Source: Deltaproteobacteria bacterium (lineage in GTDB: Bacteria > Desulfobacterota > Desulfarculia > Adiutricales > Adiutricaceae). Taken from it: 33,526 nucleotides of DNA. The notes under the pieces were generated by a model. That model made no database searches. It was not told the DNA's origin and was given only the letters and a program-made list of their open reading frames with translations. Shown piece after piece: positions 23,190 to 26,822 of the stretch (within the stretch, counting starts at the first letter, position 1; each line of letters opens with the position of its first letter). The translations under genes and the position numbers were made by a program. The DNA lies in assembly GCA_031264145.1 (NCBI GenBank), contig JAISEK010000037.1, positions 1 through 33,526 of the forward strand, in the 5' to 3' direction.

Positions 23190-23400
23190 CAGATCCCCCC
23201 GCCTTGGGGCCTTTGGCAGAAACAGGTCCTCGCAAGTTGGATAAGCAAAAACCCAGTTTGTATCAAGGCTCCCCCGGCATAAACCAGCAGGATATTTCGC
23301 GCTCTTGCGGAAGGTTTTGATTTCGCAAAAAGGTCAATCAGTGCCTTGTAGGGCATCGACTCCCCCCGTAGGCGAGGTGCCCTCGGAAAAATTCCGTACT
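23190..23400 (-). repeat. Candidate dispersed element overlapping the Sel1 3' end
   Basis: The last ~18 codons of the Sel1 gene (EGTSPTGGVDALQGTD) do not look like Sel1. Beyond the stop, another minus-strand frame stays open and reads MPYKALIDLFAKSKPSARAR followed by hydrophobic residues, unlike the GC-driven shadow frames around it. This suggests a ~200-bp element that joined the gene end and supplied its stop. No terminal repeats were identified, and only one copy lies in this window. Weakly supported. Confidence 0.25.
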
Positions 23401-24722
23401 TCAACCCCAACCCCAGCAGAACACATCAGGGTAAGTTCCCACTTGGCTTGAATGTTTCCTTGTCCAGCGGCCAGACGGTACCATTTCGCTGCCTCAGTAT
23501 AGTCTTGGGGCACTCCTTCGCCATGGTAATACGAATTGCCAAGAGATAGCTGTGCGCCAGAGTGGCCTTGTTCGGCGGCCAGACGACGCCATTTAGCGGC
23601 CTCGGCAGAGTCTTGTGGAACCCCATAGCCGTTACGATACATCATCCAAAGACTAGACTGAGCCCCGCTGTTTCCTTGTTCAGCGGCCAAACGGTACCAT
23701 TTTGCGGCCTCAGCATAATCTCGAGGTATTGGGACTTCCAGATCGCCATGGTGATACAAAAAGCCAAGTCTAAGCTGGGCTTCTAGTTGGCCTTGTTCAG
23801 CGGCCAGACGATCCCTTTCAACCCTTTCAATGATTTCAGTCTTGAACTGGGTCACGTCAATGCCGTCAAGTCTGTTCTGGGCCAGAGCATCGCCTAGGGC
23901 TGCGGCCAGACGGTACCATTTTGCGGCCTCGACCAGGTCTTGTGGGACTCCTTCGCCGTTATAATGCATATCGCCAAGTGCGGTCTGAGCTGGTGGATAC
24001 CATTTAGCCGCCAAACTATGCCATTTGGCAGCTTTTGCATAATCTTGCAGCACTCCTTCGCCATTATGATACATTAAACCAAGAGTATATTGCGCTTCAC
24101 CATAATTATGATATTCAGCAGCCTCGTGAAGCCACTTGAATGCTTCAGCATAATCTTGAGATACTCCTTTGCCTTCATAGTACATCAGGCCAAGATCTAG
24201 CTTGCCCTGAGGGTCTCCTCGTTCAGCAGCCAAACGATACCATTTAGCAGCCTCAGCATAATCATGTGGTATTTCTTCTCCATTATAATATATCATTCCA
24301 ATATCGTGTGTAACAGAAATATGTCCTCTTTCATAGGCTAAACATAACCACTTAATAGCTTCATTGAAGTTTTTTATTACACCTTGTCCTTCTTTGTACA
24401 TCAAACCAATCCGTCTCATGGCAGAAGTATTGTCTTGCTCCGCTGCTCGTTGATACCATTTGGCCGCCTCGACCAAGTTTTGAATTTGTCTATCATCATT
24501 TTCATAGAAATATCCAAGAAAATACTGGGCATCAGCGTCTCCTTTTTCGGCAATAGGACGGAGCAATTTAATAGCTTTGTCTTTATCTTGTGGTATACAT
24601 TCACCATCATAATACTTTGACGCAAGCAAAATCTGAGCTTTAGGATTTTTTTGATCAGTAGCTAGGCTATAAAATATAGCAGTTTCATCATCACATACTT
24701 TATTATCATTTTGATATCTCAA
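23334..24722 (-). CDS. Sel1-repeat (TPR-like) protein, separated from its signal peptide
   Basis: A 462-aa solenoid of about eleven ~36-residue Sel1-like repeats (residues ~26-422), each close to AQ-LG-MYYNGEGVPQDYAEAAKWYRLAAEQG. One unit near residue 290 is degenerate (IERVERDRLAAEQG without the preceding turn). Sel1 proteins act as scaffolds in signalling or host and envelope contacts; no partner is evident. The only start in this frame is TTG 24722. Upstream, one in-frame TAA (24771-24773) divides it from an ATG-started signal-peptide-like segment, so the present gene is either a nonsense mutant or re-initiates without its export signal. GC rises from very low at the 5' end to high at the 3' end. 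The last 40 residues leave the repeat pattern. Confidence 0.75.
   Translation of the reverse strand: MRYQNDNKVCDDETAIFYSLATDQKNPKAQILLASKYYDGECIPQDKDKAIKLLRPIAEKGDADAQYFLGYFYENDDRQIQNLVEAAKWYQRAAEQDNTSAMRRIGLMYKEGQGVIKNFNEAIKWLCLAYERGHISVTHDIGMIYYNGEEIPHDYAEAAKWYRLAAERGDPQGKLDLGLMYYEGKGVSQDYAEAFKWLHEAAEYHNYGEAQYTLGLMYHNGEGVLQDYAKAAKWHSLAAKWYPPAQTALGDMHYNGEGVPQDLVEAAKWYRLAAALGDALAQNRLDGIDVTQFKTEIIERVERDRLAAEQGQLEAQLRLGFLYHHGDLEVPIPRDYAEAAKWYRLAAEQGNSGAQSSLWMMYRNGYGVPQDSAEAAKWRRLAAEQGHSGAQLSLGNSYYHGEGVPQDYTEAAKWYRLAAGQGNIQAKWELTLMCSAGVGVEVRNFSEGTSPTGGVDALQGTD
23457..24647 (-). repeat. Degenerate ~108-bp tandem repeats encoding Sel1 units
   Basis: About eleven in-frame copies of a ~108-bp unit. 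Copies towards the 3' end of the gene (23457-24000) are more alike and GC-rich. Those near the 5' end are AT-rich and diverged. They are coding repeats, not a CRISPR array. Confidence 0.8.
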
Positions 24723-24770
24723 ATCTAGATTATATCGAGTCTCAACTTCTTGTTTTTTTAATGTTTCAGG

Positions 24771-24863
24771 TTAACATATGTTTATACTATATCTTTTTGC
24801 TAAATCAAATACCAATAGCATAGTAAAAAGAAATATAACTGATAATAATAATTTATTTTTCAT
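24771..24863 (-). pseudogene. Detached N-terminal signal segment of the Sel1 gene
   Basis: ATG 24863, with AAAGG (24874-24878) ten bases upstream, encodes 30 residues: MKNK, a hydrophobic run LLLSVIFLFTMLLVF, then a short charged end, then TAA. This is a normal signal peptide or anchor. The frame is identical to the Sel1 frame that continues after the stop, and the 16 codons between the stop and TTG 24722 remain protein-like (PETLKKQEVETRYNLD). One base change would restore a 509-residue exported Sel1 protein. Confidence 0.65.
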
Positions 24864-25175
24864 GAATATATAGCCTTTACTATTTTTTTATCTTTATGGT
24901 GTCAGCAAACAATAGAAATGACCGCATAGATTGCCGTTATATTTGGCCTATCCAATTTGATATACTCATATGCTCACAGGAAAAGGGCTTTTCATGCAAG
25001 ACGCAATTCGGTGGCCAATCGGCTTTAAACCCACTTATGCCATTCCTTCAGACCTACCGCTGACAAATTTGGCAGATCATTATGTTCGCCAGCACAGCCA
25101 TTGTCTCAATATCATCAAAAATACAGTCGAGGTCTCCCATATTTTTGACCGAATCCTGGCAGATTCGCCCAATAC
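24864..25175. other. AT-rich intergenic region
   Basis: 312 bp, among the most AT-rich DNA in the window, between the Sel1 gene and the AAA-ATPase-like gene. On the plus strand it has an extended -10-like TGATATACT (24958-24966) and a short open frame from ATG 24994, described under findings. I see no convincing minus-strand promoter for the Sel1 gene. Confidence 0.4.
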
Positions 25176-26822
25176 TTACCCCTCGCTTTCCATCAAGGCC
25201 AGACACTGGCCACGCCAGGAGACGCCAAGGCCTATCTTGACCAGCTCCTTGGCTTCGGCCTGGAATGGCCTCCAGTAGTCCTTCCCATCTATGGCTGACA
25301 AAGCCGTCTTGGCCAGCCTGGCCACGAGCCTAGTCTGCAGCGGGATTGACTTGCCGACATCGAATTTGAGTTCCATCACCGCATACAGGCCATCCGGGAA
25401 AATGACCAGCAGATCCGAGTTGCCGACGGCGCCCTTGCGCTCCGGCGTCACGATGCGGCCAAACTTGTGGCAGTATCCGTACAGAACCTTGTGGTAGCAC
25501 GACTCGTTGTCGGCGTGGTGCTCGGCCGAAAGCCCGGCGAAGACGGAATCGATGATCCGCGTGAGCTTCCCGGCGTCCCTGTCCCGAATCGCCCCGTGAA
25601 AGATGTCCATTTCGATGGCCGGATCCTTGCCCAGGAAGCCGTAGACGTTGTCCTGGAACCATTTGATATTTGGTCCTTTGACCTCCAGATTTGGGATTTT
25701 CAAGGTGAAGGCCCTGCCAACGTCCTTGATGTTCACGACTTTATCTATCGTCAGATACCCCGTCTGGAACAAGGCCGGAACAGGCCCAAGACCGCCGACC
25801 TCGGCCAGGCCGAGGGTTCCCTGGGAAATCTCGCCAGACTCGTCTCCCAGGAGAGCAAGAGGGTTCTCCCTGGCCACTTTTGACAAAAAAGCAACGGACG
25901 GGTTCGACTGTATCCAGTAGTCAGAAAAAGCCGATAGTTCAAGAAATTTCAATATGGACAGGGGGTTCAGGACCATGGTCTTTCCATCCCAGCTATATCC
26001 GTCGTACCAGTCATTGACGATGTCCATCAGATCGGCGACGGTGGCATCCGCTGGCACTGGATCCTGACCCCTCATATCTCCAAGGACAACCGGCAGATGC
26101 TCCCGGAAACAGCCATCAAACTCCTCCTGGGTAAAGCCGCAGATGCCGGCGTATTTTGGGGTCAAAGTGATGTCGTTAAGATGGTTGAGACCGGCCGAGA
26201 GGCCCATGAAGGCATAGCGGGTCACCCCTGTCACGAAGACGAAACGCAGGTACTTGTCGGTGTCCTTGAAGCCGGAGTAAAAATCCCTCAGTATTTCGCT
26301 GTTTTTCAAGGCCAATTCCCTATTGTCGATGTTGTTGCTGACTGGGGCATCGTACTCGTCAATTAGGACGACCACTTTTTTATCGTATTTTTCATTCAGG
26401 CCTTGTATGACAAAGAACAAATCGGTTCCAGGAAGAGTAATGTCAAGTCCCAATTTTTCTGAATGATTAATTCTTTTCAGCTTCTTCAGGATGGATTCCT
26501 TGAGATCTTCCGGGGAATTGGTGGACGAGGACATTGATAAGTTTATGATAGGGTAGGTCTGTTTAAAATCATAATCCGACTCTCGGCCAATCCAGAGGTC
26601 GGCGAAGAGCCCCTTGGGTTTCCCGTCGGGATCTGGTGGCCCGCTAAACAGCGACTCAAAGGTGCTCAAAAGAAGTGATTTTCCAAACCTCCTGGGCCTT
26701 GAAAGGAAGTAGGCCTTGCCACTGCGGACCATGTCGTAGACGTACCTCGTCTTGTCGGCGTAAACATAGCCACCTTCAATGAGATCCTTGAATGTCTGCA
26801 TGCCGATCGGCAGTTCTTCCAT
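25176..26822 (-). CDS. AAA-ATPase-like / PD-(D/E)XK nuclease domain protein
   Basis: A 548-aa protein of the family with an AAA-ATPase-like domain (PF09820 type) and a C-terminal PD-(D/E)XK nuclease-like domain (PDDEXK_9 type). Residues 1-60 have the family opening: FKDLIEGGYVYADKT, then the modified Walker A SRPRRFGKSLLLS. Walker B is VVVLIDEYDAPV (about 150-161), and VFVTGVTRY follows. The nuclease core is SDLLVIFPDG...AVMELKF, giving the D...ExK arrangement. The family is multi-copy in many anaerobes and its role is unknown; mobile-element or defence roles have been suggested. ATG 26822 has GGGGA six bases upstream. GC is lower than in the flanking housekeeping genes, consistent with transfer. 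A second member begins at 33387. Confidence 0.92.
   Translation of the reverse strand: MEELPIGMQTFKDLIEGGYVYADKTRYVYDMVRSGKAYFLSRPRRFGKSLLLSTFESLFSGPPDPDGKPKGLFADLWIGRESDYDFKQTYPIINLSMSSSTNSPEDLKESILKKLKRINHSEKLGLDITLPGTDLFFVIQGLNEKYDKKVVVLIDEYDAPVSNNIDNRELALKNSEILRDFYSGFKDTDKYLRFVFVTGVTRYAFMGLSAGLNHLNDITLTPKYAGICGFTQEEFDGCFREHLPVVLGDMRGQDPVPADATVADLMDIVNDWYDGYSWDGKTMVLNPLSILKFLELSAFSDYWIQSNPSVAFLSKVARENPLALLGDESGEISQGTLGLAEVGGLGPVPALFQTGYLTIDKVVNIKDVGRAFTLKIPNLEVKGPNIKWFQDNVYGFLGKDPAIEMDIFHGAIRDRDAGKLTRIIDSVFAGLSAEHHADNESCYHKVLYGYCHKFGRIVTPERKGAVGNSDLLVIFPDGLYAVMELKFDVGKSIPLQTRLVARLAKTALSAIDGKDYWRPFQAEAKELVKIGLGVSWRGQCLALMESEG

Follow-up and report, generated by a model that had tools for sequence, protein, structure and literature searches.

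Organization of the locus

The window, meaning the whole stretch of 33,526 nucleotides that was analysed, contains a Sel1-repeat gene whose reading frame is interrupted by one stop codon (Table 1). On the minus strand, a single frame from 24995 to 23334 translates as MKNKLLLSVIFLFTMLLVFDLAKRYSINIC, a stop, and then PETLKKQEVETRYNLDLRYQ. The original prediction held that one in-frame TAA splits a hydrophobic segment from a Sel1 frame, and translation confirms this layout. The start codon of the MKNKLLLSVIFLFTMLLVFDLAKRYSINIC segment, an ATG at 24863-24861, had been credited with a ribosome site, which is indeed present as AAAGG. Past the TAA, the frame continues without another stop until a terminal TGA that ends at 23334.

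Table 1. Coordinates of the interrupted Sel1 gene and of the features around it (positions in the window).
Feature	Start	End	Strand	Basis
Hydrophobic N-terminal segment (signal or signal-anchor) MKNKLLLSVIFLFTMLLVFDLAKRYSINIC, ATG + 30 residues	24774	24863	-	Translation, chance test, colinear L074, L075, L058, L098
AAAGG, Shine-Dalgarno-like, 10 bases before ATG 24863	24874	24878	-	
In-frame TAA stop	24771	24773	-	
Sel1-repeat frame past TAA, 478 sense codons, 10 matched Sel1 stretches	23334	24770	-	PF08238
Diverged first Sel1 repeat and short linker, immediately past TAA	24645	24770	-	Profile score, alignment, model
TTG, earlier-proposed re-initiation site; codon 17 past TAA, within repeat 1	24720	24722	-	
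IS-end-like remnant, with terminal-repeat-like TGTCAGCAAACAATAGAAATGACC at 24900-24923 (+)	24900	25034		
AAA-ATPase_like / PDDEXK_9 protein, upstream neighbour of the Sel1 gene within the insert	25176	26822	-	
pfkB-family kinase bounding the insert on the left; start codon uncertain	22034	23179	+	
Peptidyl-tRNA hydrolase (pth), bounding the insert on the right	27129	27821	-	

The Sel1 gene and its AAA-ATPase neighbour occupy the approximately 3.9 kb that separates pfkB from pth. In five genus relatives, pfkB and pth are convergent and directly adjacent, with match coordinates that place them about 8 to 485 bases from each other; in a sixth, they lie on different contigs. Judged by this gene order, the AAA-ATPase/Sel1 insert is specific to this lineage among the genomes compared. 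Because the insert is absent from the five informative genus relatives, no orthologue of the Sel1 gene is expected there. The host lineage has a very large repertoire of both families, with 45 matches to the AAA family and 108 to the Sel1 query in this genome. Many of the 45 matches to the AAA-ATPase_like / PDDEXK_9 family lie near contig ends, and the pattern suggests a multi-copy, perhaps mobile, family. Around ten diverged copies of an intergenic block of about 45-60 bases (25038-25081) are found elsewhere in the genome.

Sequence resembling the end of an insertion element precedes the gene. A 126-base block upstream of the ATG is 79% identical to a block near an ISNCY transposase fragment (G000:C136), and the terminal-repeat-like motif within the remnant ends 36 bases before ATG 24863. 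This motif (TGTCAGCNNACAATAGAAATGACC) has six copies in the genome, and a reversed control has none. Copies are also present on G000:C31, C40, C96, and C136, some of them with no clear transposase nearby; beside three of the other copies, none was seen in the few kilobases read. We infer a link between the motif and an ISNCY element, and the motif is possibly a small non-autonomous element.

The Sel1 array and its first repeat

Sel1 proteins are recognized by tandem repeats of about 36 residues that score above the Pfam cut-off. The frame past the TAA belongs to this family, with a PF08238 score of 285.6 bits against a cut-off of 30.7. An AlphaFold model of the N-terminal part of the post-stop frame (mean pLDDT 80) has the alpha-helical repeat fold of the Sel1 type, and its best match in the PDB is 6ok3 (TM-score of 0.74-0.75 on the query).

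Repeat-like sequence extends up to the stop codon. Scored end to end, the first 42 residues past the TAA are a diverged Sel1 repeat (z 4.9, with 0 of 500 shuffles as good). A local profile search of the same repeat gave 0.6 bits only, and the Pfam search did not clearly call it. The residues right past the TAA are nevertheless placed as repeat 1 in a multiple alignment (A3), and the structure model gives this repeat one helix at residues 6-23, of low confidence, and another at 28-39. Taken alone, the residues between the TAA and TTG 24722 provide a modest gain in repeat score (p about 0.04). A protein that began at TTG 24722 would leave the 16 codons ahead of it resembling untranslated DNA, but there a codon-position model gives this frame +2.6 bits, versus -9.0 and -10.2. 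The codons past the TAA had been described as protein-like, a view borne out by the codon-position model together with the repeat score.

The hydrophobic segment upstream of the stop

The MKNKLLLSVIFLFTMLLVFDLAKRYSINIC segment consists of a basic start followed by a hydrophobic core, with a Kyte-Doolittle mean of 2.97 over 15 residues. Region 24700-24899 is very AT-rich (21% G+C). This composition makes hydrophobic residues cheap, and the chance test therefore shuffled the same bases. When 24899-24774 was shuffled 20,000 times with its dinucleotides preserved, 1.6% of the shuffles contained an in-frame ATG followed by an open frame, and 0.005% (1 in 20,000) contained one whose segment was as hydrophobic as the real one and had a basic residue near its start. 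Given the rarity of such matches, a chance origin of the hydrophobic segment is very unlikely. The codon-position model scores the segment itself negative, as expected of a targeting segment, and this score is thus left out, for or against.

The description of MKNKLLLSVIFLFTMLLVFDLAKRYSINIC as a clean signal segment is accurate for its basic start and hydrophobic core but overstated as to cleavage: inspection by eye found neither a small-x-small cleavage motif nor a standard lipobox. With no clear cleavage site, the segment may be an uncleaved signal anchor, which is as likely as a cleavable signal peptide.

Relatives of the interrupted gene

Relatives in the same bacterial family encode a signal segment and Sel1 repeats in a single frame that is colinear with the present locus across the position of the TAA. 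They include G007:C171 (L074; E 7e-12), G022:C254 (L075), L058, and the more distant L098. Wider context comes from 66 surveyed Sel1 frames of four or more repeats, which were picked by similarity and are not an exhaustive set. An ATG or GTG precedes the first repeat in 61 of the 66. The window frame is among the five without one, and of these it has the most hydrophobic in-frame sequence upstream of the stop (2.97; next 2.21). A targeting segment is found in about a third of the surveyed frames, and about two thirds look cytosolic, which means that a cytosolic product of this gene would be unremarkable on its own.

The colinear relatives, the chance test, the Sel1 character of the sequence past the stop, and the lack of an ATG or GTG before repeat 1 support the reading of the upstream segment as the true N-terminus of the Sel1 protein, broken by the TAA. 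Distant paralogues suggest that the ancestral gene was uninterrupted. Searches of 40 relatives, 37 family genomes, and collections of genome contigs and viral contigs returned paralogues or nothing, but no intact orthologue carrying a sense codon in place of the TAA.

Internal stops are also present in other Sel1 arrays of the bacterial family. In L082 (G017:C56, at 14304 and 2881) and L072 (G024:C109, at 13086), Sel1 frames start right past an in-frame TAG and have open sequence upstream of it; PylS is below the cut-off in both genomes. A literature search for Sel1 genes with a premature stop found nothing.

Interpretation of the stop codon

The TAA is best read as a nonsense mutation of an accessory gene; the mutation may be fixed or polymorphic, or may reflect an error in the base call. 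Most likely it is an ordinary loss of function of recent origin (or such an error), not a novel mode of gene control. In its specific form, a single nonsense change probably cut the targeting segment off a formerly whole, now inactivated, accessory Sel1 gene. The ancestral gene would have encoded one protein, a hydrophobic signal or anchor followed by a Sel1 array, that was exported to the cell envelope or tethered there. Lying where the targeting segment meets repeat 1, the nonsense change would end translation after 30 residues. The repeat array would then not be made, or would be made poorly from internal TTG codons and remain in the cytosol. Such a loss would be tolerated because the gene is part of an accessory AAA-ATPase/Sel1 insert and is one of many Sel1 genes in this genome. 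With all 478 codons past the TAA intact, the change would be recent, a polymorphism, or a base error; the lack of further decay in the Sel1 frame is likewise consistent with an erroneous base or an uncommon allele. We infer that the change is recent, that the gene is inactive, and that the base call is correct.

It is possible, if rather unlikely, that the stop is an error of base calling or of the consensus, or that the assembler chose a minor allele; most cells would then carry an intact gene. The TAA at 24773-24771 rests on a single base call in a draft assembly of 198 contigs, where one wrong base would suffice, and the open frame kept over all codons past the TAA is as expected of such an error. 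However, there is no homopolymer at the TAA itself, and nothing positive points to an error.

Somewhat less probable again is a cytosolic Sel1 protein that starts at TTG 24722, the upstream sequence being a separate 30-residue membrane peptide or a product of chance. TTG is an allowed start, and the surveyed frames that lack a signal segment, about two thirds, agree with a cytosolic product. However, no Shine-Dalgarno-like bases lie upstream of TTG 24722, and a start inside repeat 1 would delete most of helix A. The coding signal continues upstream of the TTG, most surveyed frames offer an ATG or GTG ahead of their first repeat, and the hydrophobic segment has a chance of about 5e-5. Re-initiation at this codon, raised as a check in the original prediction, is therefore disfavoured: it has no ribosome site and falls within the first repeat. 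Since coding signal is present all the way to the TAA, the annotated start should be shifted to TTG 24722 only if evidence supports it.

Read-through or suppression of the TAA, which would yield some full-length secreted protein at a low level, is highly improbable. The frame is intact on both sides of the stop, and the genome has a tRNA-Pyl beside a PylS gene, so that one stop codon is probably decoded. However, the stop is TAA, whereas the CTA anticodon of the Pyl tRNA pairs with TAG. Of the three stop codons, TAA generally leaks least, and a search of the region for known RNA families found nothing. A more elaborate version, in which the TAA is a controlled barrier and rare suppression or internal initiation gives two products, one full-length and exported, the other cytosolic and lacking the targeting segment, is more doubtful still. 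If the TAA allele did make both forms, it would represent an unusual stop-codon control of export.

The pyrrolysine genes lie on G000:C57 (locus L213, 2923-6424), where PylS scores above the NCBIfam cut-off and the tRNA-Pyl has the anticodon CTA. PylB- and PylC-like frames, named by eye from their sequences, are found beside them, and PylS is also present in G001, G004, and G022. TAG is thus probably a sense codon, decoded as pyrrolysine, in this genome. Pyrrolysine recoding of the stop in the Sel1 gene is rejected, although pylS and tRNA-Pyl are present, as the codon is TAA and not TAG.

Phase-type switching at the TAA, by which the gene would be turned on and off, is the least credible alternative and next to negligible: on and off states would differ by one local change only and an IS-end-like remnant is close by, but 24400-25180 has no tandem repeats, slippage in the A7 tract past the TAA would shift the frame rather than remove the stop, and inversion between 24700-24719 and 24829-24848, the sole inverted pair close by (AT-rich, 80% complementary, and spanning the TAA), would not evidently restore the frame. 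No convincing invertible segment was found at the TAA site, and the gene does not qualify as phase-variable. The core idea behind the five options originally offered for the stop, a true N-terminus cut by the TAA, is supported; phase control and read-through lack support, the former as there are no tandem repeats and the latter as the codon is TAA rather than TAG or TGA.

The preferred reading, a nonsense change in an accessory gene, is of little importance in its present form: it records either the decay of a single accessory Sel1 gene or an unreliable base in it.

Comparison with known systems

The modelled fold matches those of Sel1 proteins with solved structures (4bwr, 6ok3, and 6deh). 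SlrC and SlrV of Haemophilus influenzae are secreted Sel1-like repeat (SLR) proteins (PMC4792463). The present sequence has in common with such proteins an N-terminal targeting segment followed by Sel1 repeats. However, secreted SLR proteins are recognized by a targeting segment that shares one uninterrupted frame with the repeats, and here TAA 24771 intervenes and no clear cleavage site is seen in the segment. Closer to hand, G007:C171 (L074) and G022:C254 (L075) have a colinear signal segment and repeat 1, as here. Unlike the window frame, theirs are uninterrupted, and at 29-32% identity they are paralogues rather than orthologues. The locus also resembles nonsense-interrupted pseudogenes of expanded accessory families. 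It differs from them in having only one lesion so far, and it shares with them a frame that is intact apart from a single stop, a nearby IS-end-like sequence, and many paralogues.
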